This document shows positions 3,470 through 32,599 of a stretch of 45,562 bases of DNA, one piece after another; positions within the stretch are counted from its first letter, which is position 1; every line of letters starts with the position of its first letter. The notes beneath the pieces were generated by a model that saw only the letters and a program-made list of their open reading frames with translations, had not been told where the DNA came from and did not search any database. Origin of the DNA: Bacteroidota bacterium. GTDB taxonomy: Bacteria; Bacteroidota; Bacteroidia; Bacteroidales; FEN-979. Location: the NCBI GenBank assembly GCA_026391715.1, contig JAPLDO010000019.1:1-45562 (forward strand). The letters are read 5' to 3'. The position numbers were made by a program, and so were the translations under genes.

Positions 3470-4369
3470 CTATTCTTTCTTCTGCGAATTTCTCCGGGAA
3501 ATTTTTTCCTGAACTTCATCGTTCACATCATGCCATGCTTTATAAAAAGAGATGAAAGCGGGGTCGGTTGAACGGTCGTTCATTTTTGAATCAGGTTCCC
3601 ATGGTTTATAATTGCCGGTAAAATGCAGGACTTTGATGTCGGGTAGATTGATCTTTTTTCCCGAAAGGAATTCAGGCCATTTGCTAACGATCATGTTATA
3701 CGCGAATGGCAGGATACTGGCCACTCCGTCAAAAAAAAGGTTCAGAACCACCTGATCGGTGTTGTGTGTCCGGATGTTCCGGAAAATGTTGATGTGAATC
3801 AGATCTTTTAACCCATTGTATGTGTTTTGATTCAGGAGTTTTTTACCGACAACAAAAAAGCCTGCGTTGAAAGTTTTCAAAAGCATGGTAGAAACATCTG
3901 TAACTTCAGATCTCAAAATTCGTTTGAAAGATTTTCTGCTGCGGACTTTTCCAACATGGCGGTTCGGTTGATCTGAACAGGCAAGCAGCGGCGCCGGATG
4001 CGAAAGCGCCTCCGAAATATCCCCCATGACCAGCATGTCGCTGTCGAAAAAGAGCAAACGGTCGTAATCGCCAAGGTTAAAGATTTCGATCGAATAAAAC
4101 CGGCGGCGTTTCGCGATGAGTTCCGGCAAGGCATTGCAAAGATGCCCGATACGTAAAAGAAGGTCGTCGCCGGGGTTGTAAAATTTCACTCTCGGGAATA
4201 TTGCAAAAAGCTCTTCCTGACCCGGTTCAAGTCCGTCGGATATAATCACGATGTCGCCGGCGAACCAGGGATTGTGTTTCAAAAACGAATGAATCAGCGC
4301 CATAGTCCCCGGAACAAAATCAGGGCTTGTAACCGTACACATACATAAACTTTCCTGTTTTACCTGCAT
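3470..4369 (-). CDS. GT8-like glycosyltransferase (copy 1)
   Basis: The 299-residue protein has a GT-A fold signature. CTVTSPDFVPGTMALIHSF begins the nucleotide-sugar binding half, LLFFDSDMLV carries the metal-binding DSD at 109-111, NAGFFV lies at 168-173, and HFTGNYKPW (249-257) matches the H-x-x-G-x-x-K-P-W motif of family GT8. It should transfer a sugar from a UDP-sugar in the cytoplasm; the acceptor is unknown. It is the last gene of the minus-strand operon, 100 bp after a sulfotransferase, and is a paralogue of the genes at 6022 and 7722. The repeated pairing of this family with sulfotransferases suggests a sulfated glycan or a glycosylated and sulfated product. Confidence 0.8.
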   Translation of the reverse strand: MQVKQESLCMCTVTSPDFVPGTMALIHSFLKHNPWFAGDIVIISDGLEPGQEELFAIFPRVKFYNPGDDLLLRIGHLCNALPELIAKRRRFYSIEIFNLGDYDRLLFFDSDMLVMGDISEALSHPAPLLACSDQPNRHVGKVRSRKSFKRILRSEVTDVSTMLLKTFNAGFFVVGKKLLNQNTYNGLKDLIHINIFRNIRTHNTDQVVLNLFFDGVASILPFAYNMIVSKWPEFLSGKKINLPDIKVLHFTGNYKPWEPDSKMNDRSTDPAFISFYKAWHDVNDEVQEKISRRNSQKKE

Positions 4370-4375
4370 TTTCTA

Positions 4376-4425
4376 ATTTCTTTGTGCGCCTTTGTGCATC
4401 CTTTCACGCCTTTGTGGTTAATTTT
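4376..4425. repeat. Word-like repeat (cctttgtg type)
   Basis: The word ctttgtg recurs three times (tttctttgtgcgcctttgtg, then cgcctttgtggttaa) within about 50 bp, between a sulfotransferase and the last glycosyltransferase of the operon. The same kind of phrase is common in intergenic DNA of Bacteroidota. No coding or structural role is evident. Confidence 0.5.
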
Positions 4426-4469
4426 TAAACTGTTTGGTCAACGCCCCATGAGCGAAGTAAACCAAAACT

Positions 4470-5231: not shown

Positions 5232-5240
5232 AGGGTTTTA

Positions 5241-6032
5241 TCAGGAATGGTATGAATAAGAGGAAAAATGCACAAAAGGCGCCAACGCTTGCGAAACAAA
5301 TATGATGTCAGCTTCATTCCATGTCACATCAAAACGGCTTTTATGAGGGGATGGATAGATGACTTTTTTACAATTTTCAATAAACCCGTCAGGTACCCCT
5401 AATCCAAGAAAGCTAAAGAGGGTGGTTATGGATTCATTCGGGAAAGACAAAAACTGCTCGTGATAAACATCATGCCAATCCAAGGGATCAATGGTTTTCT
5501 TTAATTCAGAAGTCCGTTCAATGCGTTTAATAAACTTGTCAACAGCGATTCTTATATTGTCGGTTTTTGGATTTTGAGTTTTTTTGAAAAATGTGCTGAT
5601 CATGTCGAACGGGTTCCGCATAACATGAATATATTTTATTGGCAACCCCAGGCTTGTTCCGATGGAATCGAGAATTTCGGGCTTATTCGTAAAAACTTTT
5701 GAACTGCCGCCACCCTTTTTATCGCCGATCACCCGCAGTGTTGTATATCGTCCGTTCCATTCGCCCGGAATGAGGTATGAATAATTATTCCATGTCCTGC
5801 CTTCCAGGGCGAACTTGAATGAATTTAACAGGATCATCGAAAAAATCCGTTCTTTCGGGTAGCCCCTTTTCAACAATTTACCGACATGAAGTTCATGAGA
5901 AATAGCGGTATTCGGATGCGCGTCAATGATGGAGCCAATTAAGCTGTGCCCGCTATAGGGATAGCCGATAAACATGCAAAAATACTTTAGGTTGGATAAC
6001 AGCTTACTATCCAGGTTAATGTCATTCATCAA
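5241..6032 (-). CDS. Sulfotransferase-family protein (divergent)
   Basis: The 263-residue protein has a P-loop-like 5'-phosphosulfate motif, IGYPYSGHSLIGSII (22-36), and a 3'-phosphate motif, HVMRNPFDMIS (Arg 139, Ser 146), which place it in the sulfotransferase superfamily. The first motif uses GYPYSGHS instead of GAxKSGTT, so it belongs to a different branch from the genes at 4470 and 6974. The start overlaps the end of the upstream glycosyltransferase by 11 bp, which points to translational coupling. A second Met directly follows the first, so the start may be one codon later. The acceptor is unknown. Confidence 0.7.
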   Translation of the reverse strand: MMNDINLDSKLLSNLKYFCMFIGYPYSGHSLIGSIIDAHPNTAISHELHVGKLLKRGYPKERIFSMILLNSFKFALEGRTWNNYSYLIPGEWNGRYTTLRVIGDKKGGGSSKVFTNKPEILDSIGTSLGLPIKYIHVMRNPFDMISTFFKKTQNPKTDNIRIAVDKFIKRIERTSELKKTIDPLDWHDVYHEQFLSFPNESITTLFSFLGLGVPDGFIENCKKVIYPSPHKSRFDVTWNEADIIFVSQALAPFVHFSSYSYHS

Positions 6033-6939
6033 TGCGGATTTTTGTTTGTTTAAACGCTGATAATTTCTTTTGCAGATGGTAGAATGTCAAAAAACTGATG
6101 TACGACTGATACCATAATTGATATGCTTTTATCCAGTTCAGGTTATTGGCTGAGGATGCAAGAACTTCGGAAAAGATCCAGGGTTTGAACTTTGAATAGT
6201 AGTGGATTATTTTAGCGTCTTCGATTGAAATGTCTTCTTTCTCCCTGATCATCCGCGCTGCCCTTGCCCTGTAGTTATATCGGGCATCCAGCAAACTGAT
6301 TGTGTTTTTGAAATATTGATTTATTATACGTTCATCGGTGTAGGTCAGGCTGTTATTTTGCCATTTTTCAGGATCAATAAGGTTCAGCAATCCGGCAAAA
6401 TGGTTGTTGTTCAGTATGTTGCCATCAATAAGCATGCAGCCTGTATTGACTGGAGTATTTAGAAAACCTTCCTGGCTTTCAGTTGTATTAAACCCGGCAA
6501 TGAAACTTGCCTCATTTCTTCCCTTGCCTTTGTACCAGCACAATTCAGCGCTGGCATAAAACGAACCGGGAAGAGTGAACAGCTCTTCGATTGTTTTTAC
6601 CACAATCATATCGCTGTCTAAAAAAAGCGTCTTTTCGTAGCCGGAAAACCTGAAAATTTCAAGGGAATAAAATCTGGCTATTTTATTTGCGAATGTCGGC
6701 ATTGCTTTCACAAAATCTGCCAGCTTTTCCATTAATTCCGATGATGGCTCGATAAGTTTGACATTGCTGAACATCTTCAGTCCGTCTGCCATTTCTTCTG
6801 GCAGGTTGTTGCAGATCACAGCAATATCTCCTGTAAACCAAGGATTTGAGCTGACAAAAGAGTGCAGCATGGTCATCGTCCACTGAAAATAATTTTCAGT
6901 GGTCACCGTCGCCAGGCAATATCGCTGATCATTCTTCAT
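6022..6939 (-). CDS. GT8-like glycosyltransferase (copy 2)
   Basis: The 305-residue protein is a paralogue of the genes at 3470 and 7722. It shows LATVTTENYFQWTMTMLHSF at the N-terminus, TLFLDSDMIVV with the metal-binding DSD at 108-110, a PVNTGCMLI block near 163-171, and HYYSKFKPW (246-254) as the GT8-type C-terminal motif. It is closer to copy 3: both have SAELCWYKGKGR or the related SAESCWYQGKGR block after the DSD motif. The start codon lies within a 14-bp direct repeat (6937-6964). The predicted role is transfer of a sugar from a nucleotide sugar to an unknown acceptor, coupled with the overlapping sulfotransferase downstream. Confidence 0.8.
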   Translation of the reverse strand: MKNDQRYCLATVTTENYFQWTMTMLHSFVSSNPWFTGDIAVICNNLPEEMADGLKMFSNVKLIEPSSELMEKLADFVKAMPTFANKIARFYSLEIFRFSGYEKTLFLDSDMIVVKTIEELFTLPGSFYASAELCWYKGKGRNEASFIAGFNTTESQEGFLNTPVNTGCMLIDGNILNNNHFAGLLNLIDPEKWQNNSLTYTDERIINQYFKNTISLLDARYNYRARAARMIREKEDISIEDAKIIHYYSKFKPWIFSEVLASSANNLNWIKAYQLWYQSYISFLTFYHLQKKLSAFKQTKIRIDE

Positions 6940-6964
6940 TCTTTATTCTTCATTCTTTATTCTT
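6931..6964. repeat. 14-bp tandem repeat at a gene start
   Basis: Two perfect copies of cattctttattctt (6937-6950 and 6951-6964) are preceded by a partial copy. The first cat is the start codon of the glycosyltransferase gene read on the minus strand, so the repeat forms most of the 34-bp gap between two operon genes. Confidence 0.7.
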
Positions 6965-6973
6965 AATTTCAGA

Positions 6974-7741
6974 TTAAGTCCTCCATTCTTCAATTTCGCC
7001 CCCTAAAAATTCAAAAAGCCGTTCATTGAAGGGTTTGTAAAAATTCCGGATTTGCCTGACCACCGCTTCATCAAGTTTTACAGGATATTCTGTTTTCCGC
7101 TTCCAGGCATGACAGTTTTCAGGAAAATCACCGATATTTAAAAACCGGCTGACTTTCCTCAATGTTTCTGCCGGATGATTAAAATAGCGTTCGGAAATTA
7201 ATATCAGCAATTGCTCAGAAGGAAAAATCCCTCGCAAATGCTGAATTTGATCAATATACATACCTCTCTCAAAAATGTCGAGAGGTTCCTCTCTCTTTAT
7301 TGTTGCCGATGGGCATGAAACGTAATAGTTAAACAGATGTGAAAATCCGATATTTTCGATTTTGGGTTGGTTTCTGCCGTTAAACAGATGGGCTTGTTTT
7401 AACAACCGGCTTTGGTTATACCGCATCGTCCAATTCGAAAAGGCGCGCTTGAATGGTTCCCTCAGCAGAATGATCAGTTTAATGCCAGGGTTATGGTCGA
7501 AAATCCGCTGATGGCAACTGGTTTCATATAAATAGGAGGTGGATTTTTCTCCCTGAACCTTTTCAGGATGCAGGAACTGTGAAGAATACCATTTAACCCC
7601 TTTGTTATAAAAATGGGAAAAATAGTTTAGTTCAACACCCGGCGTATAAATATCGGGATGCTGTTTCAGTCCGGCAATCAGCGAAGTTGTTCCCGACTTG
7701 GCAGCGCCAACGATCAGAAAGTCAGGTATGACTTGGTTCAT
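6974..7741 (-). CDS. PAPS-dependent sulfotransferase
   Basis: The 255-residue protein carries the 5'-phosphosulfate loop VGAAKSGTTSL (11-21), the block GVELNYFSHFY (35-45), and LIILLREPFKRAFSNW with Arg 94 and Ser 102 for 3'-phosphate binding. This is the heparan-sulfotransferase-like type, related to the gene at 4470. The start overlaps the upstream glycosyltransferase by 20 bp, so the two are probably translated together. The repeated glycosyltransferase-sulfotransferase arrangement in this operon suggests that one adds a sugar and the other sulfates it, but no substrate can be identified. Confidence 0.85.
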   Translation of the reverse strand: MNQVIPDFLIVGAAKSGTTSLIAGLKQHPDIYTPGVELNYFSHFYNKGVKWYSSQFLHPEKVQGEKSTSYLYETSCHQRIFDHNPGIKLIILLREPFKRAFSNWTMRYNQSRLLKQAHLFNGRNQPKIENIGFSHLFNYYVSCPSATIKREEPLDIFERGMYIDQIQHLRGIFPSEQLLILISERYFNHPAETLRKVSRFLNIGDFPENCHAWKRKTEYPVKLDEAVVRQIRNFYKPFNERLFEFLGGEIEEWRT

Positions 7742-8660
7742 TGTCCTTCAGCAGGTTAATTTTTTGTTGCAAATGATTATATTTCAGGAATTCAACATAG
7801 TATGTGTACCATAACCGGAAGGCTTTGATATGTACGACATCGTGTTGCGATAATTCGAATACCTGATCAAAATTCCAGGGTTTATACTGACGGAAATAAT
7901 GGATAACCTTCGCATCTTCAAATCCTACGCCATCCTTTGCCAGGATATCGCTTGAGTTTGTGGGACGGTAGTTATAACGCGCATCGACAAGTGTTATCTG
8001 ATCCTTGAAAAAAAGGTTGATGATAAGCTGATCGGCATGTAGCGTGTTTTTATTGCCCCAAAGACCTGGTTCGATTAATGTTACAAGGCTATCGTAATTC
8101 TCCTGGCAGATCATTGTTTCATTGAGCATCATAAATCCTGAGTTTACCGGATTTTTTATAAACAACCCGGGAATTAGACAGTTTTCAACGCCTTCGTATG
8201 TATCCGCTCTTCTTCCCTTTCCCTGGTACCAGCACGATTCGGCACAAGCGCTGAAAGGTTCGGTAAAATCAAACGCCTCCTTTATTGATTTAACAACAAG
8301 CATGTCGCTGTCGAGGAACAGTGTTTTTGTGTATCCTGACAAGTTGAACGTTTCCAGTGAAAAAAACATGGGTGACAATCGGGAAAACCCCGGAATTGCC
8401 CGGCATAGCTCATCCACCCGCTCTACAAGTCGGGCGGAAGGAGCGATAAACCGTATCCGCGGAAAAATATCAAATCTGGTTTTATCCTCCGATGTTAAAT
8501 CGTTGCATATTACGATCACATCGCCCTTAAACCAGTCATTTGATTGCAGAAATGAAAATAGCATGATCATCGTCCACTGGATATAATTTGCAGTAGTGAC
8601 GGTTACCACGCATGGATGAAAATCTGAAGTTTCCTCACGGATATTTCCATTTATTGTCAT
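7722..8660 (-). CDS. GT8-like glycosyltransferase (copy 3)
   Basis: The 312-residue protein has the same plan as the genes at 3470 and 6022: VVTVTTANYIQWTMIMLFSF, then TLFLDSDMLVV with DSD at 117-119, then PVNSGFMML, and HYFRQYKPW near residue 260. The family uses a nucleotide sugar and a divalent metal. Its start overlaps the stop of the upstream gene as ATGA (8657-8660), and its end overlaps the following sulfotransferase by 20 bp, so it sits in a tightly coupled three-gene unit. The acceptor is unknown. Confidence 0.8.
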   Translation of the reverse strand: MTINGNIREETSDFHPCVVTVTTANYIQWTMIMLFSFLQSNDWFKGDVIVICNDLTSEDKTRFDIFPRIRFIAPSARLVERVDELCRAIPGFSRLSPMFFSLETFNLSGYTKTLFLDSDMLVVKSIKEAFDFTEPFSACAESCWYQGKGRRADTYEGVENCLIPGLFIKNPVNSGFMMLNETMICQENYDSLVTLIEPGLWGNKNTLHADQLIINLFFKDQITLVDARYNYRPTNSSDILAKDGVGFEDAKVIHYFRQYKPWNFDQVFELSQHDVVHIKAFRLWYTYYVEFLKYNHLQQKINLLKDNEPSHT

Positions 8661-9526
8661 TCTGAATTTGATTTCAGGTATTTGGCAAAAAGTTTTGTAG
8701 GAATAAGCTTGAAATTTGAAAATCCCATTTGATGAAATTTCTCAACATTGAAAAAATAGAAGGCATATTCAAGCATCCCAAGTTCCTGTTTTTTGCAGCG
8801 GATTTTGTCTGTTTTTGCCTGGTTGAATTTTGAAATCTCGGGATAGCATATTCTGGATGGGCAACTGTATGCGCAGGCGGCGTTGGCAAAAAGCATCATC
8901 CGGCTCTTTTCGGGAAGATTTTCCAGAAAATCATCGTCATCGTTCAAATCCATCGGAATCACGACATCATCGTATAGATCAAGGGATTTTTTGACTTTTT
9001 CAATGGTGTTCAGATTTTTAATGATACTCGCCCTGATGTTGTAAAGAGGGAAATCTTTCCTGATCCTGCGAGCCAGATCGTCTGAAGTACATATTATGAT
9101 ATTCCCCGTGCGGTGATATTTTTCAAGGAAGGATAGGTTTTGCTGATAAAGTTCATCAGAGTAAAAGTGGTTCGTCAGGGTGAGCGCAAGATTTATTTTA
9201 CGGCGATAAAGTGTGTTCAAATGATTTTCGGTAAGTGATTTGGCTGCCTCGTAAATCCTGCCGCCATAAAATCCTGAAGGCTCCGTTGTACTGCCGAAAA
9301 CGGAGGATATTTGAGAAAAATCAATGTAAACAAAGAAGAACTGAAGATATTTGACAATGTTGGTCCGTTGATTGATCCATCTTCCGGAAACGGAGTAGGA
9401 AAAAGCAGGATTTTTAAAAATTTCGTGGCTGGTTTTGAGGTCAACATTATTTTTGAACAGCTCTTTCATCTCCTGTGCTTGTTTCTTATTGAGATTGTAA
9501 AAATAGTTTTTTATTGCAATCGGCAA
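8657..9526 (-). CDS. TIM-barrel-like protein with four cysteines (U32-peptidase-like?)
   Basis: The protein has 289 residues if the TTG at 9526-9524 is used; the first ATG, at 9469, would give 270. No ATG lies upstream in frame before the stop. The middle has alternating strand and helix blocks (INLALTLTNHFYS, GNIIICTSDDLARRIRKDFP, IRASIIKN, DVVIPMDLND) and then ANAACAYSCPSRICY. Cys 218, 222, 227 and 244 are spaced C-x3-C-x4-C-x16-C. This plan recalls the U32 peptidase / UbiU-UbiV families, where four cysteines hold an iron-sulfur cluster; the match is by pattern only. It leads the minus-strand glycosyltransferase-sulfotransferase operon and diverges from the lasso kinase gene 72 bp away. The function is unknown. 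Confidence 0.5.
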   Translation of the reverse strand: MPIAIKNYFYNLNKKQAQEMKELFKNNVDLKTSHEIFKNPAFSYSVSGRWINQRTNIVKYLQFFFVYIDFSQISSVFGSTTEPSGFYGGRIYEAAKSLTENHLNTLYRRKINLALTLTNHFYSDELYQQNLSFLEKYHRTGNIIICTSDDLARRIRKDFPLYNIRASIIKNLNTIEKVKKSLDLYDDVVIPMDLNDDDDFLENLPEKSRMMLFANAACAYSCPSRICYPEISKFNQAKTDKIRCKKQELGMLEYAFYFFNVEKFHQMGFSNFKLIPTKLFAKYLKSNSE

Positions 9527-9552
9527 ACCTAAAATATCAATCAGAATAAATT

Positions 9553-9560
9553 TAAATTTG
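9553..9560 (+). promoter_or_regulatory. Possible -7 box for the kinase-sulfotransferase genes
   Basis: TAAATTTG fits the Bacteroidota TAnnTTTG consensus and lies 38 bp before the kinase start. No clear TTTG box was found at the normal 19-21 bp spacing upstream, so the call is weak. Confidence 0.35.
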
Positions 9561-9598
9561 CGCTGATTTTGGTCGCGAAATAGTTAGATAAATCCTTA

Positions 9599-10543
9599 AT
9601 GAATCAGCAATACTACTATTACAAAGCGTTTGGACTTGTTTTTAAATCTTGCATTGAACATCCTGATTTTATTGCCGAAGCGGCAATTTCCGAGCCCGAT
9701 TGCCTGATCTCCTTTGGTTCGGTGCCGCATAAGCTGAACAAACCAGACGCTTTAGGAGGGGTTTACCAATTGCAGGGGCGGCAGTTTTTTTTGCGAATTG
9801 AAAACGTTGGACGGTATCTTATCGAAAATGGGGATAAAATAACCATCGAAAGGCTACCCGGCGCAACCGACCGGGAAATTATTGTGTTCCTGTGGGCATC
9901 AGCCGTCGCGGCATTGCTTCATCAGCGGGGAAAACTCATTGTACACGGGAGTTCGATAATGAAAGGGGAAAATGCCATCATCTTTTCAGGCCCATCCGGG
10001 AGCGGCAAATCAACCATTGCCTCAATATTCGCAACACGCAAAGGCGCCATGATTATTTCTGACGACATTTCTGCCATTTCTTATGATCCTTTGTCGGAGG
10101 TTCCATTTGTGCTGCCAGGTTATCCTCTGATGAAACTTTGGCGCGATTCATCCGACAAATTAGGATTGGAATGGGATGATTCGAGATTGATCCGTGATCG
10201 GGTTAACAAGATGATGGTCAACATCAATGATAAGTTTGTGAACCATTCCGTTCCTCTGCGCCAGTTTTATCTCCTCTCCTATATAAATAAAGGTCCGGGC
10301 GCTATTCGCGAAGTCAATGGATATAAAAAACTGGAATTGCTGACAGGAAAGATATTCAGAAAGAATTACCTGAAAAAGCAGGAATCCGGTACGATTGACA
10401 TTTTTACCGAGGCGTCGAAAATATTGCCGAAGATCAGGATATGCACCCTCCAGCGGCTGCTGGGAATTGGTCATTTGGACGAAACAATCGAAATGATCGA
10501 ACAGGATCTTATGCAATCAGGCATCATCAGCGGTATTCAATGA
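9599..10543 (+). CDS. HprK-like lasso-peptide kinase (putative)
   Basis: The 314-residue protein has the fold signature of the HPr kinase C-terminal domain. LIVHGSSIMK (113-122) precedes the Walker A motif GPSGSGKST (131-139), and ISDDISAI (153-160) carries the paired Asp residues. The N-terminal 100 residues are not the HprK sensor domain. No HPr or PTS gene is nearby. Instead the gene sits upstream of PqqD-like, B2 and cyclase genes, the setting of lasso-peptide kinases such as PadeK and ThcoK, which phosphorylate the C-terminal Ser of their precursor. The precursor here does end in Ser. The stop overlaps the next start as ATGA. Another peptide-tailoring kinase role is possible; a role in carbon catabolite control is unlikely. 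Confidence 0.75.
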   Translation: MNQQYYYYKAFGLVFKSCIEHPDFIAEAAISEPDCLISFGSVPHKLNKPDALGGVYQLQGRQFFLRIENVGRYLIENGDKITIERLPGATDREIIVFLWASAVAALLHQRGKLIVHGSSIMKGENAIIFSGPSGSGKSTIASIFATRKGAMIISDDISAISYDPLSEVPFVLPGYPLMKLWRDSSDKLGLEWDDSRLIRDRVNKMMVNINDKFVNHSVPLRQFYLLSYINKGPGAIREVNGYKKLELLTGKIFRKNYLKKQESGTIDIFTEASKILPKIRICTLQRLLGIGHLDETIEMIEQDLMQSGIISGIQ

Positions 10544-11382
10544 AAAACCTTGTTTGGCTTGCATCCTATCCCCGGTCGGGAAATACCTGGTTTCGGTTAT
10601 TTTTATCCTCAATCCTGTCAGGGAACAGCAGGAAAGATCTGAACCAGATCGAAGTTGACCTGCTTTCAAACTCGCGGCGCATGTTTGACGAACTTGCCGG
10701 AATTACTTCATCCGAGTTGGCAAATGACGAAATCAACAACCTTAAACCTGCCGTTTTCCAGCTTCTTTCATGCGAATCAACGGATCATCAGTACTTGAAA
10801 ACGCACGACCGGTTTTTTCTAAATTCGGCAGGCTATCCGGTTTTCCCGCAGGAGTATTCTTTTGGGTGCGTTTACATCATCAGAAACCCGTTGGATGTCG
10901 CCGTATCCAATGCCCACTATTTCAGCAAACCGGTGGATGAAGTTATTGCCATTATGAACAATCGCGGTTACGCGCTCAATGTTTCAATAGATTGTTTATA
11001 CCCATTGCTGGAAGAATGGATTGGCGACTGGAGCGGACATGCAACGAGCTGGCTCAATTCAGGCGTCAGGGTTCATGTAATCCGGTATGAAGACATGATC
11101 AGTTTTCCGGTTGAAACTTTTTCAAAAGCGCTCAAGTTCCTGAAAATTAAATTTACAGAAGAGCGGGTCAGTATTGCCCTTTCAGAAACATCGTTTGAAA
11201 CCATTAAAAAATCGGAGGAACAGTTTGGTTTTAAAGAAAAACTTCAGAGCTGCAATTCCTTCTTCAGGCAAGGAAAAGCAGGCGGATGGAAAACTTTTTT
11301 AACCGAATTACAAATTAGAAAAATAGCAGGGGATCACCGTGAGGTGATGGAAAGGTTCGGATATCTCGAACCCGGTTTTTAA
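10540..11382 (+). CDS. Cytosolic-type sulfotransferase in lasso cluster
   Basis: The 280-residue protein has the classic small-molecule sulfotransferase motifs. LASYPRSGNTWFR (7-19) binds the 5'-phosphosulfate, YLKTHD places Lys 87 and a probable catalytic His 89, and YIIRNPLDVAVSN (113-125) binds the 3'-phosphate with Arg 115 and Ser 123. The C-terminal part GKAGGWKTFL matches the RxGxxGdWK PAPS-binding block. This branch differs from the heparan-type enzymes in the divergent operon. The start was set at ATG 10540, which overlaps the kinase stop as ATGA; the longer open frame reaching back to 10441 lies inside the kinase gene. The coupling implies that the sulfotransferase works on the same product as the kinase, perhaps a Tyr, Ser or Thr of the precursor or a sugar on it. 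Confidence 0.8.
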   Translation: MKNLVWLASYPRSGNTWFRLFLSSILSGNSRKDLNQIEVDLLSNSRRMFDELAGITSSELANDEINNLKPAVFQLLSCESTDHQYLKTHDRFFLNSAGYPVFPQEYSFGCVYIIRNPLDVAVSNAHYFSKPVDEVIAIMNNRGYALNVSIDCLYPLLEEWIGDWSGHATSWLNSGVRVHVIRYEDMISFPVETFSKALKFLKIKFTEERVSIALSETSFETIKKSEEQFGFKEKLQSCNSFFRQGKAGGWKTFLTELQIRKIAGDHREVMERFGYLEPGF

Positions 11383-11404
11383 AGAAGAACAAGAATCCAG
11401 CCAC

Positions 11405-11501
11405 CAGCCCTGAAAGGGCGTAATATGTCAACGATGGGTGCAGCCCATCGAATACAGCCCTGAATGGGGCATAATGCACTAACGATGGGTGCAGCCCATC
11501 G
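11405..11501. repeat. Two direct copies of a double-hairpin element, 50-bp period
   Basis: Each copy has a hairpin GCCCT-gaa-AGGGC (or a close variant), a short AT spacer, and a 7-bp hairpin CGATGGG-tgcag-CCCATCG. Copy 1 is 11405-11450 and copy 2 is 11455-11501. The array lies between the sulfotransferase stop and the promoter of the B1-B2-C genes, where it could stop or slow transcription. It looks like a dispersed Bacteroidota palindrome rather than a simple terminator, as no T-run follows. Confidence 0.8.
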
Positions 11502-11514
11502 CAGAAAAATGTAA

Positions 11515-11546
11515 TTTGTAGGGAATTACAAAAATGAATACTTTTG
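11515..11546 (+). promoter_or_regulatory. Bacteroidota-type promoter for B1-B2-C
   Basis: TTTG (11515-11518), a 20-bp spacer and TACTTTTG (11539-11546) fit the TTTG / TAnnTTTG pattern well. The 5' untranslated leader to the B1 start at 11625 would be about 70 bp. Confidence 0.6.
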
Positions 11547-11624
11547 CCCGTTCAATTGCGGCAGAAGACATATACAGTAATTTAAGTTTAAGCAACTGAT
11601 TTTAAACCATAACAGAATTCAACA

Positions 11625-11906
11625 ATGGCGATCAATCTACTTTCGGTCATTTCTAAAAATCCGGCGATCATCTCAAGTAAAATGGACGATGAAGTCGTGA
11701 TGATGAGCATTGAAAAAGGCAATTATTATGGATTAAACCCGGTTGCGGCGGAAATCTGGGAAATGTTAGCCGCGCCTATGACGGTCCAGGCTATTTGCGA
11801 CCGGTTGATGGAGGAATTTGATGTAGATCAGGAAAAGTGTTACAATGAAGTGCTTGTCTATGTTGAAAAACTCGGAAATGAAGGATTGATTGTGGTAAAC
11901 AGTTAA
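11625..11906 (+). CDS. PqqD-like RiPP recognition protein (lasso B1)
   Basis: The 93-residue protein is a PqqD-family RiPP recognition element. The family pattern is visible: VVMMSIEKGNYYGLNPVAAE in strands 2-3 and helix 1, then IWEML, MTVQAICDRLMEEFDVD, and a last helix EVLVYVEKLGNEGLI. In lasso clusters the separate B1 protein binds the leader peptide and delivers it to the B2 protease. It is the first gene after the promoter at 11515 and lies 20 bp before B2, consistent with a split B protein. PqqD homologues also serve other RiPP types, but the neighbours here point to the lasso type. Confidence 0.9.
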   Translation: MAINLLSVISKNPAIISSKMDDEVVMMSIEKGNYYGLNPVAAEIWEMLAAPMTVQAICDRLMEEFDVDQEKCYNEVLVYVEKLGNEGLIVVNS

Positions 11907-11926
11907 CCCTTAAACCGCCCCAATGA

Positions 11927-12337
11927 ATGGTTCCGAATAAGATTGGCATCTCCGACGTCTGGTATTTTATTGCAGCCTCTGTTTTACTCTATGTGTGCCA
12001 ATTCCTGGTTTTCTTTATTCCTTTTCGCTGGTACATTCCTCTTTTTACAGACCATGGAAAAAACAGCCGTGAAAAAATTACCGTTGCCAAAACGCTGATT
12101 GTCCGCAAAGCGTTGCTGCGCGGGCTCCATTATCTCCCATGGAAGGGGAAATGCCTGGTTCAGGCGCTGACAGGTAAAGTATTGCTGAAGATGGTTCATA
12201 TACCAGGCGTCATCTTTTTGGGAGTTGCCAAAGAGGACGACCGGTTGAAAGCTCATGCATGGCTTAAATCGGGAAATCAGTTTATATGCGGACAGGAAGG
12301 ACATAAGAGCTACACTATTGTCAAGGAGATTTCATAA
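11927..12337 (+). CDS. Lasso-peptide leader protease (B2, transglutaminase-like)
   Basis: The 136-residue protein matches the lasso B2 family of cysteine proteases. LPWKGKCLVQALTGKVLL carries the catalytic Cys 76, and LKAHAWLKSG carries His 110; the 34-residue spacing is normal. The usual third residue, an Asp, is not obvious in the short tail after the His. One membrane-spanning segment is likely at about 11-32 (VWYFIAASVLLYVCQFLVFF), which would place maturation at the inner membrane beside the exporter. The start is ATG 11927; an ATG 4 bp earlier runs into a stop after five codons. The role is to cut the precursor between leader and core so that the cyclase can use the new N-terminus. Confidence 0.88.
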   Translation: MVPNKIGISDVWYFIAASVLLYVCQFLVFFIPFRWYIPLFTDHGKNSREKITVAKTLIVRKALLRGLHYLPWKGKCLVQALTGKVLLKMVHIPGVIFLGVAKEDDRLKAHAWLKSGNQFICGQEGHKSYTIVKEIS

Positions 12338-12348
12338 CGACAATCCTT

Positions 12349-14259
12349 ATGAGTACAATCTTTGGAATCATTGATAAATCAGGGGAGGGATTCGACCGGC
12401 AATGGCTGGAACTAATGAATGCCGACCTGGCGCATGGAGCTCCTGATCGTTCGGGATTGTGGCAAAACGAAAATGCGGGGCTTGGCAATTTGCAGGTGTT
12501 TAATACACCTGAATCATTGGCAGAAATCCTGCCAATGGAGAGCCTTGAACGAGTCCTTACAATTTGCAGCGATTCGAGGATTGATAACCGGGATCAGATA
12601 GCCGGTCGTTTATCCATTAGCCCGCATGATCTGAAAACGACGCCCGACAGCTCCCTTATCCTCAAGGCATATCAAAAATGGGGAACTGCATGTTGCACCT
12701 ATCTGCGCGGGGATTTTGCATTCGGGATTTATGATGTTCGTAACCGGCAATTTATCCTTGCGCGCGATCATTTTGGGATGCGCCCGATCTTTTATTTCGA
12801 TCATCCCCGGTTTTTCATCTTCTCATCCGAGCTGCGCGGGATACTTGCTTTGCCGTTTTTTGAAAAGGAGCTGAACAGCGTTTGGTTTCTTGATTATCTG
12901 ATCAATGTGGAGCGGGAAGAAAATGATACCTTTTACCAGGGAATTTTTTCCCTGCCGCCAGGCAATCAAATAGTTGTGAAATCAGGTATAATGACGATCC
13001 AAAAGTACTGGGAATTGTCAATTCCTGATAGAATCGTCTTGAAAAATGATGGTGAATATATTGAAGGTTACAAGGCTTTGTTTGAAAATTCTGTGAAAAA
13101 CCGTACCCGGTCGGCTTTCCCGGTAGGAGCGGAGTTGAGCGGTGGACTGGATTCCTCTTCAATTGCCGCCATCGCTCAAAAAAAATTGACAGCGCAAGGC
13201 AATCAACTTCATGTTTTTGCAAGAGTACTGCCTGAACAGGTCAACTCGGCGCTGGATGACGACGGAAAGGATGAGACTGCTGAAATCGAAATGGTTTGCA
13301 ACTTTTGCGGGATTCAAAATATTCACCAGATCACTCTTGAAGATGAGAAAATTGTAGAAAATATTGGACAGAATATCGAGGTGGTGCGATCTCCTTTTTA
13401 TAGCAACTATGCCGTATATAATCTGAATGCCCATCACGTGGCAAAATCTATAGGGGTGCGAACCATGTTATCAGGTCATGGCGGCGATCAGATGGTTACC
13501 AATCCTGCTCATTTTGTTTACCAGGATTACATGAGAAAATTCAGATATTTAAAACTTTTCCGCGACATCAGGGCAAAAGATACCATGCATGACCTTGAGT
13601 TTGTAAAATCTTTGAGGTATTTTTTTAATCTCCGCAGGAATAAAAATGATTTTATTAATAAGAGGAGGGAGATTAAAAAACTCTTTAAGTTTGGAATTAA
13701 TCCCGATTTCCTGGTTCAAAACCATCTTGAGGAACGCTATTTGCAAAACAGGCAACATGCGATGCTATTGCCCGAAAATGGCTCCGATCTGATCCTGAAA
13801 ATCACCCATCGTCACATGAACGATCGGATCGAAGCTACCTCCATCATGGCAGGGCATGATGGGATCGAATTCAGATATCCCATGTACGATGTTGACCTGA
13901 TTGAATATTATCTTGCAGTTCCGGATGAAATCAAACGAAAATTTCGTTCCGGACGCTATCTTCACAGAATGGCAATGCAGGATGAACTGCCACCGCCAAT
14001 TCAATGGAGAAGAGACAAGAATGGCACCATTAACCCTGGACTTGCAAGAATTTTTACCAACGAAGCATTAAAAGTAAAGTCAGACCTGAGCAGGTACAGC
14101 GAGGCACATCAGAATTCGACCGCTCTGATTTTCGATCCGACAATGATCGGATATCTCGTTGCTGATGACAGCAATAATCTCTATAAATACAAATCGTTGA
14201 TCAATAAATTCTTTCAGTTGCAAAATTTCGAAAAAATAATTGAAAAAAAATTTGGCTAA
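12349..14259 (+). CDS. Lasso-peptide macrolactam synthetase (C, asparagine-synthetase-like)
   Basis: The 636-residue protein has an N-terminal class II amidotransferase-like half and a C-terminal asparagine-synthetase half. SGGLDSS (264-270) is the PPi loop that activates a carboxylate with ATP, and LSGHGGDQMV is the second conserved block. The protein starts Met-Ser-Thr, so the Cys 2 nucleophile needed to release ammonia from glutamine is missing. This fits a cyclase that uses the peptide's own N-terminal amine to make the ring amide to a Glu or Asp side chain. A plain asparagine synthetase is unlikely given the missing Cys and the flanking B1, B2 and precursor genes. It starts 11 bp after B2. 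Confidence 0.88.
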   Translation: MSTIFGIIDKSGEGFDRQWLELMNADLAHGAPDRSGLWQNENAGLGNLQVFNTPESLAEILPMESLERVLTICSDSRIDNRDQIAGRLSISPHDLKTTPDSSLILKAYQKWGTACCTYLRGDFAFGIYDVRNRQFILARDHFGMRPIFYFDHPRFFIFSSELRGILALPFFEKELNSVWFLDYLINVEREENDTFYQGIFSLPPGNQIVVKSGIMTIQKYWELSIPDRIVLKNDGEYIEGYKALFENSVKNRTRSAFPVGAELSGGLDSSSIAAIAQKKLTAQGNQLHVFARVLPEQVNSALDDDGKDETAEIEMVCNFCGIQNIHQITLEDEKIVENIGQNIEVVRSPFYSNYAVYNLNAHHVAKSIGVRTMLSGHGGDQMVTNPAHFVYQDYMRKFRYLKLFRDIRAKDTMHDLEFVKSLRYFFNLRRNKNDFINKRREIKKLFKFGINPDFLVQNHLEERYLQNRQHAMLLPENGSDLILKITHRHMNDRIEATSIMAGHDGIEFRYPMYDVDLIEYYLAVPDEIKRKFRSGRYLHRMAMQDELPPPIQWRRDKNGTINPGLARIFTNEALKVKSDLSRYSEAHQNSTALIFDPTMIGYLVADDSNNLYKYKSLINKFFQLQNFEKIIEKKFG

Positions 14260-14327
14260 TTGGGTTAAGATGTTTATTATTGTATTCTCGATTGCACACG
14301 GAATGTTAACTAAATAAAATATGTATT

Positions 14328-14462
14328 ATGGAAAATGTTACCAAAACCAAAAAAGTTTGGCAATCTCCTGAGATTGAGGTTATTAATTCTAAGATGACTA
14401 GTAGCGGGGGTCATCCTTGGTATAAAGAAGATGCTCATTATACTGACCCCTACCTTTCTTAA
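14328..14462 (+). CDS. Lasso-peptide precursor (A), 44 residues
   Basis: ATG 14328 to TAA 14462 encodes 44 residues. The leader has KKVWQSPEIEVI (8-19), matching the [YW]-x-x-P leader motif that B1 proteins bind. Thr 24 would be the conserved penultimate leader residue if cleavage follows Ser 25. The core would then be 19 residues starting SGGHPWYKE, with Glu 9 as ring acceptor (9-residue ring). Cleavage one residue later would give an 18-residue core with Gly 1 and Glu 8. The tail ends TDPYLS, with the C-terminal Ser that lasso kinases modify. Placement directly after the cyclase and before the exporter supports the call; most lasso clusters put A first. The exact cleavage site and ring residue are inferred. 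Confidence 0.85.
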   Translation: MENVTKTKKVWQSPEIEVINSKMTSSGGHPWYKEDAHYTDPYLS

Positions 14463-14507
14463 CTTTTATGTTTGCAATTATAATCTAAAATTAGCGCCAA
14501 AATTTAA

Positions 14508-14566
14508 CCATTGTTGAATAGAATGGTTTTCAAGCAGCAGGGTCATATCCTGCTGTTTTTGTTTTT
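14508..14566 (+). terminator. Hairpin and rho-independent terminator after the precursor gene
   Basis: A first hairpin pairs AACCATT with AATGGTT around 14508-14529. Right after it, CAGCAGG (14535-14541) pairs with CCTGCTG (14549-14555) over a 7-base loop, followed by TTTTTGTTTTT. It would end or weaken transcription between precursor and exporter, giving more precursor than exporter message. Confidence 0.8.
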
Positions 14567-14593
14567 AAATAAGGGTAGTGGCTCAAGAAAAAG

Positions 14594-16321
14594 ATGAAAC
14601 TTCAGCATAAGGATCGAAAATTTTTAATCCGCCTTTCCAAAGACCTTTTCAATTTTTCAGGAAAGAAGGTGATTCTCTCATTTGTCCTTCAGATTCTGAC
14701 GGGTTTTACCCAGGGTATTGGAATTCTCTTGCTAATCCCCTTGCTGAGCCTTGTCGGAATTTTTGACAAACAGGGAAAATCTTCCGTTTTTACCGTGAAG
14801 GTGGTATCATTTCTCCATAAAACCGGTATCCCCGGAGGAATCATGACCATCCTGCTGTTTTACATTGTCATTGTTGCTTTAAGCGCATCGCTCAACAACT
14901 ACCAGAGTATTGTCAATGCAAAGATCCAGCAACGGTTTGTCAGGTTTCTGAAAGATAAATTATACATTTCGCTGGGTCATAGCCAATGGCTTTTTGCCTC
15001 CCAGTTGCGGATGTCGGATGTGGCGCATGTAATTACTTCCGAAGTTCAACGGGCAGGTCAGGTCATTTTCCAGGTTTTGAGGTCGAGCAGCGCCCTGATT
15101 ACCATGATGGTATATCTTGCCGTTGCCTTTCTGATGTCCCCGGCTATGGCGTCATTGTCCCTTTTCGGCGCGGTCATTCTTTTGATCATCGGGCAGCAGA
15201 AAAACAGGGCGGCTTCCCAGTTGGGAAAATCCTCGCAACACTCTGCCAAAAAAGTATATCAGGTTGTGCTGGAACATCTTTCGGGGATGAAAGTTGCCAA
15301 AAGTTTTGCCGAGGAAGACCGGTATATTGACGAGTTTATCATGCATACCGAAGATCTTGAAAAACGGAAAATTGATTACGCGAGGCTGGCTGCGCGTACT
15401 TCATTCATGTTTTCCCTGGGAACGGTGGTCATTCTAAGCCTTTATGTTTACCTTGCCATTGAAATCCTGGAGATTCATGCCTCAACATTATTGGTATTGA
15501 TCTATCTCTTTTCAAGGCTGCTGCCAAAGGTAGCCTCCGTGCAGTCGTCGTATCAATCCATTCTTCAATCAATCCCGGCATTTACGGCGGTAATGGAGCT
15601 TCAGAAGGAGTGTGACCTGCATGGTGAAAATTTAACACGTAACGACAATATGGTTCATTTGGGAGGATCCGTCGAATTCAGGGATGTCTCGTTCAGTTAT
15701 AGCGCTCAAGTACTTTTCGAGCATTTATCACTTTCAATGCCGGTAAATGGAATAACCTGCATCACCGGTAAATCCGGCAGCGGTAAAACGACCCTTGCCG
15801 ATTTGATCCTTGGGCTGTTAAAACCTGCCGCAGGCGAAATCCTTGTGGATAACCAGCCTCTGAACGAATCCATTATTTACCAATGGCGAAAAAGCATCGG
15901 CTATGTCACCCAGGAATCGTTTCTGTTCAACGACACCATCCGGAACAACCTGATATGGACAAAACCCGACGCCACCGAAGACGAACTTTGGGAGGCGCTG
16001 CAAAAAGCGTCTGCCGATGAAATGGTGCGAAATTTTGAGTCGGGGCTTGAAACTATCGTTGGCGACCGCGGCGCACAACTTTCAGGAGGAGAGCGTCAGC
16101 GGCTGGCGCTTGCCAGGGCATTGGTTCGAAAGCCAACCATGCTGCTTCTCGACGAGGCGACCAACGCCTTAGATCCGGGCAACGAAATGAAAATCATTGA
16201 AGCGCTGGAAAAGTTAAAGGGAACAATTACCATGGTTATCATCTCGCACAGCAGGGAGATCCACCGGATTGCCGACCAGGTTATCCGGCTCGAAAACGGG
16301 AGAATCAGCCATGCAGGATAA
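14594..16321 (+). CDS. ABC exporter, fused membrane and ATPase domains (lasso D)
   Basis: The 575-residue half transporter has an N-terminal membrane domain with about six segments (about 25-310) and a C-terminal ATPase. Walker A is GKSGSGKTT (392-400), the Q-loop is VTQESFLFND (438-447), the signature is LSGGERQR (496-503), Walker B is MLLLDEAT (516-523), and the H-loop His is in ISHSREI (550-556). It lacks the C39 peptidase domain of bacteriocin exporters, as expected because B2 already removes the leader. It should dimerise and export the mature peptide across the inner membrane, which also gives self-protection. It follows the precursor terminator by 28 bp and overlaps the next gene by 11 bp. 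A lipid or glycan exporter is the alternative, given the glycosyltransferases behind it. Confidence 0.82.
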   Translation: MKLQHKDRKFLIRLSKDLFNFSGKKVILSFVLQILTGFTQGIGILLLIPLLSLVGIFDKQGKSSVFTVKVVSFLHKTGIPGGIMTILLFYIVIVALSASLNNYQSIVNAKIQQRFVRFLKDKLYISLGHSQWLFASQLRMSDVAHVITSEVQRAGQVIFQVLRSSSALITMMVYLAVAFLMSPAMASLSLFGAVILLIIGQQKNRAASQLGKSSQHSAKKVYQVVLEHLSGMKVAKSFAEEDRYIDEFIMHTEDLEKRKIDYARLAARTSFMFSLGTVVILSLYVYLAIEILEIHASTLLVLIYLFSRLLPKVASVQSSYQSILQSIPAFTAVMELQKECDLHGENLTRNDNMVHLGGSVEFRDVSFSYSAQVLFEHLSLSMPVNGITCITGKSGSGKTTLADLILGLLKPAAGEILVDNQPLNESIIYQWRKSIGYVTQESFLFNDTIRNNLIWTKPDATEDELWEALQKASADEMVRNFESGLETIVGDRGAQLSGGERQRLALARALVRKPTMLLLDEATNALDPGNEMKIIEALEKLKGTITMVIISHSREIHRIADQVIRLENGRISHAG

Positions 16322-17174
16322 ACCCGTCGCCGATATTTCGCTGGTTGTTCCAAACTACAACAATGGCAGGTTTCTTTCAGATTTTTTTCAAAGTGTAATT
16401 AATTCCACCGTACATCCAAAGGAGCTGATCCTCGTTGACGATGGGTCAACCGATGTGTCTGAAACGCTGATAGAGCAGTTTAAACACCTTGAATTTCTGA
16501 AGATTATTAAGTTCCCTGAGAACAGAGGCATGTCGGAGGCGCTCAATGCAGGGCTGTCCGCAGCCGCAGGTAAGTATATTATGCGGGCAGATCCAGATGA
16601 TATTCTCCATCCCGATCGAATCAGAATTCAATACCAATACATGGAAGCACATCCTGAAACAAGCGTTCTGGGATGTAATGTTGTTTATTTCCATCACCCC
16701 GCCGGCAAAAACATTAACGTTTCCAATTTCCCAACGGGGCATGATGAAATAATCGGGGCATACAAACAAGGAGTAAATGGAATTCAGCATCCGACTGCCA
16801 TCGTCAGGGGTGCAATTCTTAAGAGTTACAGATATGAAAAGGTCTCTCCCGGCGAGGATTATGAGATTTTTTCAAGGATTGCCCGCGATGGGTTCCGATT
16901 TGCCAATCTTCCTGAGCCATTATACCGGATGCGTGTTCATGGGGCAAGCTCAACAAGTAATCTCACAATTGCTTCAGTGCAAAATATTTTCTCGGCGAGG
17001 GACAGAATTTGGGGTACGAAAACAGCGAAAATGCAGGTTTTTCTGTACTTTTATTATATCAGGTTTTACCGGAAATACCAGATGTCAACTAATGGCTTTG
17101 TTCGTCATTGGTATCTGTTTGTGTCTGGAATTTGTTTTCCTTCCAGAATTTTTAAACGATTAATCAGGACATGA
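16311..17174 (+). CDS. GT2-family glycosyltransferase
   Basis: The 287-residue protein shows the GT2 plan: ISLVVPNYNNGRFLSDFF at the start, LVDDGSTD with the nucleotide-binding Asp pair (43-48), RADPDDILHPDR with the metal-binding DxD-like acidic patch (92-103), and GEDYEIFSRI with the catalytic-base region ED (182-183). The start was taken as ATG 16311, overlapping the exporter stop by 11 bp; the open frame from 16269 adds 14 residues unrelated to the family. It overlaps the following gene as ATGA. Whether it decorates the lasso peptide or belongs to a surface-glycan pathway cannot be decided from the sequence. Confidence 0.85.
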   Translation: MQDKPVADISLVVPNYNNGRFLSDFFQSVINSTVHPKELILVDDGSTDVSETLIEQFKHLEFLKIIKFPENRGMSEALNAGLSAAAGKYIMRADPDDILHPDRIRIQYQYMEAHPETSVLGCNVVYFHHPAGKNINVSNFPTGHDEIIGAYKQGVNGIQHPTAIVRGAILKSYRYEKVSPGEDYEIFSRIARDGFRFANLPEPLYRMRVHGASSTSNLTIASVQNIFSARDRIWGTKTAKMQVFLYFYYIRFYRKYQMSTNGFVRHWYLFVSGICFPSRIFKRLIRT

Positions 17175-18262
17175 AAGTTGGAATACTGGGTACCCGCGGC
17201 ATCCCGAATAATTACGGCGGGTTTGAGCAGTTTGCGGAATGTTTTTCAAAGCGGCTGGCAAAGCGCGGGATTGATGTATGGGTGTATAATTCCCACAATC
17301 ATCCTTACCAGAAACCGGAATGGAACGGAGTAACCATAGTTCATTGTTTCGATCCTGAATATCTCATTGGCGCAGCAGGACCTTTCATTTATGACCTCAA
17401 CTGTATCCTCGACAGCCGGAAACGCGGTTTTGACATTATTTTACAATTGGGTTATGCAAGCGCTTCGGTTTGGCGAAGGTTTCTCCCTGCGAAGGCAAAA
17501 ATCGTTACCAATGTTGATGGGATGGAATGGTCGAGGTCGAAATATAGCCGGATAGTCAGGTCATTTATTCGTTTGGCTGAGCATATCGCAGTTAAAAGCA
17601 GTGATTTGCTGGTTGCTGATTCGCCGCAGATCAAAGCATACTTTCAAACTGCGTATAACAAAGCCTGCGTATATATTCCTTATGGAGCTGACGTTCTGGA
17701 AAATCCGGATGCTACAAAGCTAAAAAGCCTTAACCTGAAACCCGATTCCTATTTTCTGGCAATTTCAAGAATTCAGAGCGACAACAATACAGAGGTGATC
17801 ATCAGAGGATATCTTGAGTCGGGATCGCCCCTGCAATTATTGCTTATCGGCAGTATTAACCATAAATATGCAAGGTATTTAAAGAAAAGGTACAATGCCC
17901 CTGGCATCAGGTTCCTCGGAAGCATTTTTGACATTGATCTTTTAAACCAGCTTCGTTACCATGCTCATTTATATTTCCACGGACATTCTTCGGGAGGAAC
18001 AAATCCTTCCCTTCTGGAGGCGATGGCGTCGCAGGCGTTGATATGTGCCCATGATAACCGCTTTAATCGTTTGATACTTGGTTCAGACGCCTTCTATTTC
18101 AATAATGCGCGCCAGATTGCTGATATAATCCGATATGATCCCGCCAAAGCTGAACATTCCCATTTTTTCAGGAATAATTTAAAGAAAATCAAAGATAACT
18201 ATCAATGGGATATAATCACTGATTCATATAGTGAAGCATTCGTGGATCTCCTGAAGAAATGA
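17171..18262 (+). CDS. GT4-family glycosyltransferase with DUF1972 N-terminus
   Basis: The 363-residue protein has the DUF1972-type N-terminus (VGILGTRGIPNNYGGFEQFA), common in rhamnosyl- and other deoxyhexosyl-transferases. The GT-B C-terminal domain has HSSGGTNPSLLEAMASQ (272-288) in the place of the GT4 E-x7-E motif and would bind the nucleotide sugar. The start overlaps the previous stop as ATGA (17171-17174), so translation is coupled to the GT2 gene. It ends the plus-strand cluster that begins with the lasso kinase. Acceptor and sugar are unknown. Confidence 0.85.
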   Translation: MKVGILGTRGIPNNYGGFEQFAECFSKRLAKRGIDVWVYNSHNHPYQKPEWNGVTIVHCFDPEYLIGAAGPFIYDLNCILDSRKRGFDIILQLGYASASVWRRFLPAKAKIVTNVDGMEWSRSKYSRIVRSFIRLAEHIAVKSSDLLVADSPQIKAYFQTAYNKACVYIPYGADVLENPDATKLKSLNLKPDSYFLAISRIQSDNNTEVIIRGYLESGSPLQLLLIGSINHKYARYLKKRYNAPGIRFLGSIFDIDLLNQLRYHAHLYFHGHSSGGTNPSLLEAMASQALICAHDNRFNRLILGSDAFYFNNARQIADIIRYDPAKAEHSHFFRNNLKKIKDNYQWDIITDSYSEAFVDLLKK

Positions 18263-32595: not shown

Positions 32596-32599
32596 AGCC

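Follow-up and report, generated by a model that had tools for sequence, protein, structure and literature searches.

Which product would be made from a lasso peptide gene set that lies among genes for a kinase, sulfotransferases and glycosyltransferases? This question is raised by contig JAPLDO010000019.1 of the Bacteroidota bacterium assembly GCA_026391715.1, of which a stretch of 45,562 nucleotides was analysed as a whole and is called the window here. We propose that positions 3470-18262 form one bidirectional cluster of 16 genes for a ribosomally synthesized and post-translationally modified peptide (RiPP), and that these genes would yield a single exported lasso peptide which is phosphorylated, sulfated and probably glycosylated. 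We give this reading a probability of about 0.55. Comparison with related genomes supports the predicted lasso gene set, the catalytic motifs, the restriction of one sulfotransferase clade within the order, the co-occurrence of a divergent operon with the lasso genes within the family, and the linkage of the operon protein U to sulfotransferases.

Lasso gene set and precursor

A sequence-only reading of the window had described a kinase, a sulfotransferase, the lasso set B1, B2, C, A and D and two overlapping glycosyltransferase genes, all on one strand between 9599 and 18262. All nine genes were found at these positions on the plus strand, in the order K-ST-B1-B2-C-A-D-GT2-GT1:

9599..10543, plus strand: K, HprK-like peptide kinase; catalytic residues invariant in 11 aligned kinases
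10540..11382, plus strand: ST, lasso-clade sulfotransferase with PAPS-type motifs YPRSGNTW and RNPLDVAVS; PF00685, 4e-27
11625..11906, plus strand: B1, RiPP recognition element (PqqD-like); NF033536 over cut-off; PqqD, 4.7e-22
11927..12337, plus strand: B2, leader peptidase; NF033537 over cut-off; Transglut_core3, 2.7e-16
12349..14259, plus strand: C, Asn-synthetase-like macrolactam synthetase without Cys2; Asn_synthase PF00733, 1.2e-41
14328..14462, plus strand: A, 44-aa lasso precursor; WQSP leader motif, Thr at -2, predicted core SGGHPWYKEDAHYTDPYLS
14594..16321, plus strand: D, ABC exporter; ABC_tran, 4.8e-34
16311..17174, plus strand: GT2-family glycosyltransferase; Glycos_transf_2 PF00535, 1.4e-28
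17171..18262, plus strand: GT1, DUF1972 glycosyltransferase; DUF1972, 1.2e-21; nearest NCBIfam model Cps2T rhamnosyltransferase, 211 vs a cut-off of 500

The genes overlap by 4 nt at K/ST and at GT2/GT1, and by 11 nt at D/GT2 with the GT2 start at ATG 16311; the likely start of ST is 10540. The gap between ST and B1 holds two copies of a 35-nt unit (11405-11501), which are 83% identical and 51 nt apart, and their exact 20-nt core is present just twice in the genome, both times there.

Both B1 (89.5 vs 80) and B2 (72.2 vs 33) pass the curated NCBIfam cut-offs. C begins with MSTIFG and has no Cys2, in agreement with the earlier description of an asparagine-synthetase-like cyclase without this residue. 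The other AsnB-like protein of the genome begins with MCGICG and is taken as the ordinary enzyme. We also took the protein at locus L018 as ordinary AsnB, since it has Cys2; its cyclase profile score is inflated, as it was part of the training set. The precursor carries the hallmarks of a lasso peptide, namely the leader motif WQSP ([W/Y]xxP), the sequence KMT-S with Thr at position -2, Glu9 and a C-terminal Ser, and a ring between S1 and E9 is predicted for the core. Together, these genes support the assignment of this gene row as a lasso peptide cluster.

For comparison, the lasso B1 model (E 1e-12) was run on 393 genomes of the order, of which 46 were matched, 28 of them over the model cut-off. 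This gave 46 B1 loci besides that of the window, and their genes were called by profiles from the window proteins and their matches. Within the family, the B1 model matched 7 of 43 genomes, with four over the cut-off. The B1-like loci L015-L017 were weak matches (E 6e-9 to 1e-8) and were excluded from the tallies. Precursors were located for 21 of the 46 loci with search patterns that demanded [W/Y/F/H/L]xxP, and other leaders were missed. A WxxP leader is present in 28 of 28 precursors, or in 30 of 30 with two further candidates (L069 and a second one in L014) which were tallied apart. Tyr13 and one Tyr near the end are kept in all four cores from full blocks.

Kinase and sulfotransferase at lasso loci

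No Pfam match was obtained for K and no NCBIfam model exceeded its cut-off, the best being HprK-related kinase A (29.1 vs 200). In the PDB, the best match to a profile of the K family is HPr kinase/phosphorylase (E 2.5e-7). Eight residues are invariant in the 11 aligned kinases (H116, G131, G134, G136, K137, S138, D155 and D156), and K holds the conserved H, the P-loop K-S and the D-D on which other lasso kinases depend, as compared with the motif in an excerpt of PMC10368454. The related enzymes PadeK, ThcoK and PsmK are described in part of PMC9266682 as phosphorylating the C-terminal Ser. Such a Ser ends 22 of the 27 precursors from loci with K, including that of the window (23 of 29 with the two extra candidates). 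At two loci, L067 (7252-10233) and L069 (7207-10207), ST is flanked by two K genes in the order K-ST-K-B1, which suggests two phosphorylation steps.

ST clears the gathering score of PF00685 (95.6 vs 22 bits), and its motifs for binding of 3'-phosphoadenosine 5'-phosphosulfate (PAPS) are mostly invariant across the 12 rows of the alignment. Its nearest solved relatives in the PDB are TEG12, Teg14 and SULT1 sulfotransferases, with StaL also among the near ones. TEG12, Teg14 and the SULT1 enzymes act on phenols among other substrates, and for this reason Tyr is our first guess for the sulfation site. TEG12, Teg14 and StaL sulfate glycopeptide antibiotics; unlike these, ST would act on a ribosomal peptide. 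The window genome encodes two adenosine 5'-phosphosulfate kinases, and the cell can therefore make PAPS, a common ability that 8 of 14 control genomes share.

That kinase and sulfotransferase go with the lasso genes was borne out by the neighbourhood search with B1. Both K and ST are present at 28 of the 46 loci, ST alone at four, K alone at seven and neither at seven; B2 was called at 38 loci and C at 24, several loci being cut by contig ends, which affects the absences. K and ST lie at most 120 nt apart in 27 of the 28 loci with both. Homologous clusters that never contain the kinase, the sulfotransferase or the glycosyltransferases would have spoken against the sequence-only reading; K and ST were found as above, and the glycosyltransferase pair is part of four full clusters of the genus.

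Moreover, the association is specific for one clade of sulfotransferases. A lasso-ST profile (12-row alignment with eight rows from B1 loci of the order), applied at E ≤1e-25 with up to six candidates scored in each genome, matched 36 of the 393 genomes. All 36 belong to the 46 genomes with B1, and the other 347 gave no match. The genome samples used for B1 and ST are of equal size and their listed genomes agree. The start of ST is no more than 2.1 kb from B1 in 33 of the 39 copies; the remaining six are each beside K, and of these, L137 and L139 also have C nearby and L138 a precursor. Thus, in the order sampled, the ST clade does not occur outside K/B1 loci.

At three loci with ST and B1 (L053, which also has K, L054 and L062), no B2 or C was called in the roughly 9.7 kb to either side. 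Their products are possibly linear sulfated RiPPs, and these loci suggest that ST is able to act on a linear peptide. A K-ST fragment on a 3.4-kb contig in a genome of another family (L065) shares 86.6% DNA identity with the window over 1178 nt; it may reflect horizontal transfer or a misbinned contig.

Divergent operon, glycosyltransferases and protein U

The sequence-only reading was right about the nine genes, and it gave the cluster an extent of 8.7 kb, which missed a divergent operon of seven genes on the minus strand (3470-9526):

3470..4369, minus strand: GT8a, GT8-family glycosyltransferase; PF01501, 2.8e-17; orthologues in L011, L012 and L101, none in L013
4470..5231 (likely ATG 5225), minus strand: ST1a, sulfotransferase; PF00685, 1.5e-19; orthologues in L011, L012, L013 and L101
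5241..6032, minus strand: ST3, sulfotransferase; PF13469, 1.7e-8; orthologues in L011, L012, L013 and L101
6022..6939, minus strand: GT8b, GT8-family glycosyltransferase; PF01501, 2.6e-18; orthologues in L011, L012 and L101, none in L013
6974..7741, minus strand: ST1b, sulfotransferase; PF00685, 4.9e-11; orthologues in L011, L012, L013 and L101
7722..8660, minus strand: GT8c, GT8-family glycosyltransferase; PF01501, 5.8e-16; orthologues in L011 and L012, two copies each in L013 and L101
8657..9469, minus strand: U, U32-like protein with four invariant Cys; no Pfam match; assigned by alignments, model and fold search

The open reading frame of U opens at TTG 9526, and L011, L013, L100 and L101 align from ATG 9469. 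Since this operon accompanies the lasso genes, the conserved block is about 14.8 kb long (3470-18262) and bidirectional, with 16 genes. Its limits were set there because the genes outside differ between the window and three other species of its genus (G012, G022 and G016), in which the row from K to GT1 and the operon are found together. The operon is divergent from K in all five contigs that show the junction (window, L011, L012, L013 and L101). All five have the three operon sulfotransferases; the number of GT8 genes is not constant, with two in L013, four in L101 and three each in the window, L011 and L012. In L101, a sugar-transfer-associated ATP-grasp protein (PF14397, 9504-10802) adjoins GT8a. 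A further family genome with a B1 match, G019, has K-ST-B1 and a precursor on a contig of 8.4 kb, which lacks the U operon.

With three GT8, one GT2 and one DUF1972 protein, the block encodes five glycosyltransferases. The earlier claim that the glycosyltransferases after D belong to the cluster holds within the genus, where the GT2/GT1 pair follows D in four of four full blocks with 61-76% identity to the window. It does not hold outside the genus: among the 46 order loci, a GT1 homologue was seen only in L081 and a weak GT2 match only in L082 (29 bits), and weak GT2 matches also occur in L017.

Of the operon genes, U is conserved best, its aligned copies sharing 74-80% identity with that of the window. 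Among the 43 genomes of the family it is found in four, the same four that have the full block (Fisher p 8e-6, uncorrected for kinship). It does not belong to an ordinary Pfam or NCBIfam family, as nothing significant was found in either and four U sequences gave no Pfam U32 match at E up to 10. A PDB sequence search yielded one match at chance level (E 1). A first structural model from four sequences was poor (pLDDT 40.5) and was set aside for one from 12 sequences, which shows a U32-like barrel; the nearest fold is the U32 protein 5d88. Four Cys are invariant in all 12 aligned sequences, spaced C-x3-C-x4-C-x16-C. In these two respects U resembles the U32 oxidases UbiU, UbiV and RlhA; it differs from them in having no Pfam U32 match, in its Cys spacing and in its linkage to sulfotransferases.

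This linkage extends beyond the genus. At locus L103, from a MAG (metagenome-assembled genome) titled as Desulforapulum and thus as another phylum, U is fused to a sulfotransferase and lies beside K, ST, C, B1 and a precursor. Directly upstream of K-ST-U/ST, this locus encodes a GT41 (O-GlcNAc-transferase-like) protein with TPRs (6473-8227). At L127-L132, U homologues adjoin sulfotransferase or sulfate-activation genes and giant proteins, with no lasso genes (Pfam was run on L127, L130 and L132). The contig scan for U was seeded by two short motifs and yielded at least six loci; the U homologues of a later search are not among them. Taken together, comparison of these loci indicates that U is genetically linked to sulfotransferases.

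Some U32 proteins hydroxylate without O2. In our reading, U is a U32-like partner of sulfation and, judging from the modelled fold, a candidate O2-independent hydroxylase that would supply a hydroxyl to a sulfotransferase. There is a substantial chance, if somewhat short of even, that U is instead a peptidase or a structural adaptor for sulfotransferases. The protein that matches its fold is named a U32 peptidase, its Cys spacing is unlike that of characterised U32 oxidases, and the fusion to a sulfotransferase is compatible with an adaptor as well. The role of a leader peptidase is, however, already filled by B2, and the four Cys are invariant in U as they are in eight of the ten U32 families surveyed in an excerpt of PMC6747719. 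The fusion and the gene neighbourhoods make U a candidate for oxygen-independent hydroxylation coupled to sulfation.

Proposed pathway, alternatives and neighbouring genes

In the pathway that we propose, B1 would bind the WxxP leader and offer the precursor to K and ST. K would phosphorylate the C-terminal Ser, and ST would move sulfate from PAPS to another hydroxyl, probably that of a tail Tyr. B2 would then cleave the leader after Thr(-2)-Ser(-1) and C would close the S1-E9 ring. The GT8/ST/U operon, with U as a possible hydroxylase, and GT2/GT1 would make a sulfated glycan, for which the phosphorylated tail is the simplest attachment point. The product would be exported by D. We infer all substrates, all sites and the order of the steps, as well as the sulfation and glycosylation of the peptide.

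A number of observations weigh against this pathway. C stays under the cut-off for lasso cyclases (NF033535, 400 vs 525 bits) and the precursor under that of the paeninodin family (NF033524 PadeA, 21.7 vs 27, E 1.2e-4). Sub-cut-off matches were also seen in the 14 control genomes, six for the C model and one each for the precursor and B1 models, and because of the former we identify C partly by its context. K might use a site other than the C-terminal Ser, since BsfK phosphorylates the ring residue Ser3 according to an excerpt of PMC10368454. Tyr is present in 17 of the 24 precursors from ST loci (19 of 26 with the extra candidates). As a universal sulfation site it was rejected, as the other seven have none (7 of 24 or 7 of 26); therefore, Ser or Thr must serve there. 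The Cys spacing of U departs from the usual U32 pattern CX6CX15CX3/4C, and no B2 or D homologue was found in L103.

The operon was not found at any of the 46 order B1 loci or in L014 of the same genus, several of these contigs being short and L065 starting inside K. It is therefore dispensable for a K-ST lasso peptide. The borders of the block depend on comparing the window with G012, G022 and G016, which have outer genes in common among themselves. Most of the evidence comes from MAG contigs, the window genome (256 contigs) being presumably a MAG too, and the counts of absences depend on contig ends.

A sugar attached through phosphate was considered as well. In three relatives the far end of the operon is bordered by genes for a PF14907 nucleotidyltransferase and for Wzy_C (O-antigen ligase), next to GT8a in G012 and G022 and next to ST1a in G016. 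Wzy_C was called by Pfam in L106 and L118 and by BLAST in the others; in L101 the PF14907 gene is one gene further out. PsmN of the pseudomycoidin system is presumably a member of PF14907. Although these genes flank the block in three relatives, PF14907 was ruled out as part of the block for the window genome. There, the PF14907 and Wzy_C genes are on another contig (C197), beside a homologue of the same giant neighbour gene, and PF14907 occurs in 9 of 19 genomes of the genus, both with and without the block; both facts count against the single pathway. A phosphate-linked sugar on Ser19 is plausible, and would here rely on a gene in trans.

The alternative that survives best is that two pathways are inherited together: K-ST-B1-B2-C-A-D would make a phosphorylated and sulfated lasso peptide, and the GT8/ST/U operon, perhaps with GT2/GT1, a separate sulfated surface glycan. 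We consider this possible, although on the unlikely side. Surface-glycan clusters often contain GT8 and DUF1972 proteins, K-ST lasso loci elsewhere manage without the operon, and the PF14907 and Wzy_C genes of the three relatives would fit such a glycan. However, the Pfam matches of the block include no initiating transferase for a lipid carrier, no Wzx-type flippase, no polymerase and no Wza. The presence of U in just the four lasso-block genomes of the family, the constant divergence of the operon from K, and the fact that U shares an operon with K, ST and C at L103, from a MAG titled as a species of another phylum, also argue for one pathway.

A lasso peptide that is phosphorylated and sulfated only, with GT2/GT1 and the divergent operon as passengers without a role, is improbable in our view. 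The rarity of GT2/GT1 homologues at other B1 loci would agree with it; the overlaps of GT2 and GT1 with D and with each other, and their retention in all four full blocks, do not. Still less probable is a linear phospho-sulfo peptide similar to the LPP RiPPs, a class without macrolactam cyclase: ST/B1 loci such as L053, L054 and L062 point that way, but C and B2 are both present in the window cluster, and its precursor has Thr(-2) and Glu9.

The proposed lasso pathway may be carried one step further, to a sulfated glyco-lasso peptide whose phosphorylated C-terminal Ser bears a multiply sulfated oligosaccharide, with U making hydroxyls without O2 for dedicated sulfotransferases. We regard this extended form as doubtful. 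If it were true, U would represent an anaerobic module of general use in which hydroxylation precedes sulfation. Bacteroidota and a MAG titled as Thermodesulfobacteriota would employ it together with lasso genes, and away from lasso clusters it would stand next to giant repeat proteins and genes for sulfate activation.

Among known systems, the paeninodin-type clusters (PadeK, ThcoK) are similar in the catalytic residues of the HprK-like kinase, the separate B1 and B2, the WxxP leader, the C-terminal Ser and the ABC exporter. The window differs from them in belonging to Bacteroidota, in the order K-ST-B1-B2-C-A-D, in the added ST and glycosyltransferases and in a precursor that is under the PadeA cut-off. 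Pseudomycoidin (PsmK, PsmN) shares the kinase and the idea of a sugar on phospho-Ser (excerpt of PMC9266682), and PF14907 genes lie beside the block in relatives; unlike its cluster, the window block has no nucleotidyltransferase and has GT8, GT2 and DUF1972 enzymes and sulfotransferases. The WxxP leader in every precursor located here contrasts with a 2026 paper, part of which assigns the WxxP form to Bacillota and describes paeninodins as confined to that phylum (PMC13381572).

The combination of kinase and sulfotransferase, which the sequence-only reading had thought new, is not. A kinase (HPr kinase) and a sulfotransferase were reported in 2014 in some lasso clusters of anaerobes (PMC4289311), and a 2021 review mentions a sulfotransferase in lasso clusters of Firmicutes (PMC8498205); the excerpts of both name no product or family. 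Glycosyltransferases near lasso genes were noted in 2020 in ruminal clusters, according to part of PMC7533575. A recent review, in the part available, lists glycosylated, phosphorylated and acylated lasso peptides, and in the excerpts of open-licence PMC literature searched we found no sulfated or sulfonated lasso peptide product. Unlike the clusters in the excerpts of PMC4289311 and PMC8498205, the ST clade of the window is found, among the order genomes sampled, only at K/B1 loci and is joined by the GT8/ST/U operon. What is new is this confinement of the ST clade in the order sampled, the bidirectional block rich in sulfotransferases and glycosyltransferases, and U with its sulfotransferase fusion. 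An old remark on lasso clusters with kinase and sulfotransferase hence becomes a defined, testable family, and the divergent operon suggests that lasso peptides may accept sulfated sugars.

Outside the conserved block, the window encodes a protein with a Tle1-like phospholipase catalytic domain of the type VI secretion system (T6SS; 1095-2120; PF09994, 2.3e-84) and, at 41807-42736, a protein matching DUF7149 and DUF7814. Positions 25972-34729 hold a giant CarboxypepD_reg protein of 2207 aa and an SprB-repeat protein with a Por secretion tail. Giants that resemble this SprB-repeat protein adjoin GT1 in G012 and G022 (L108, L109).

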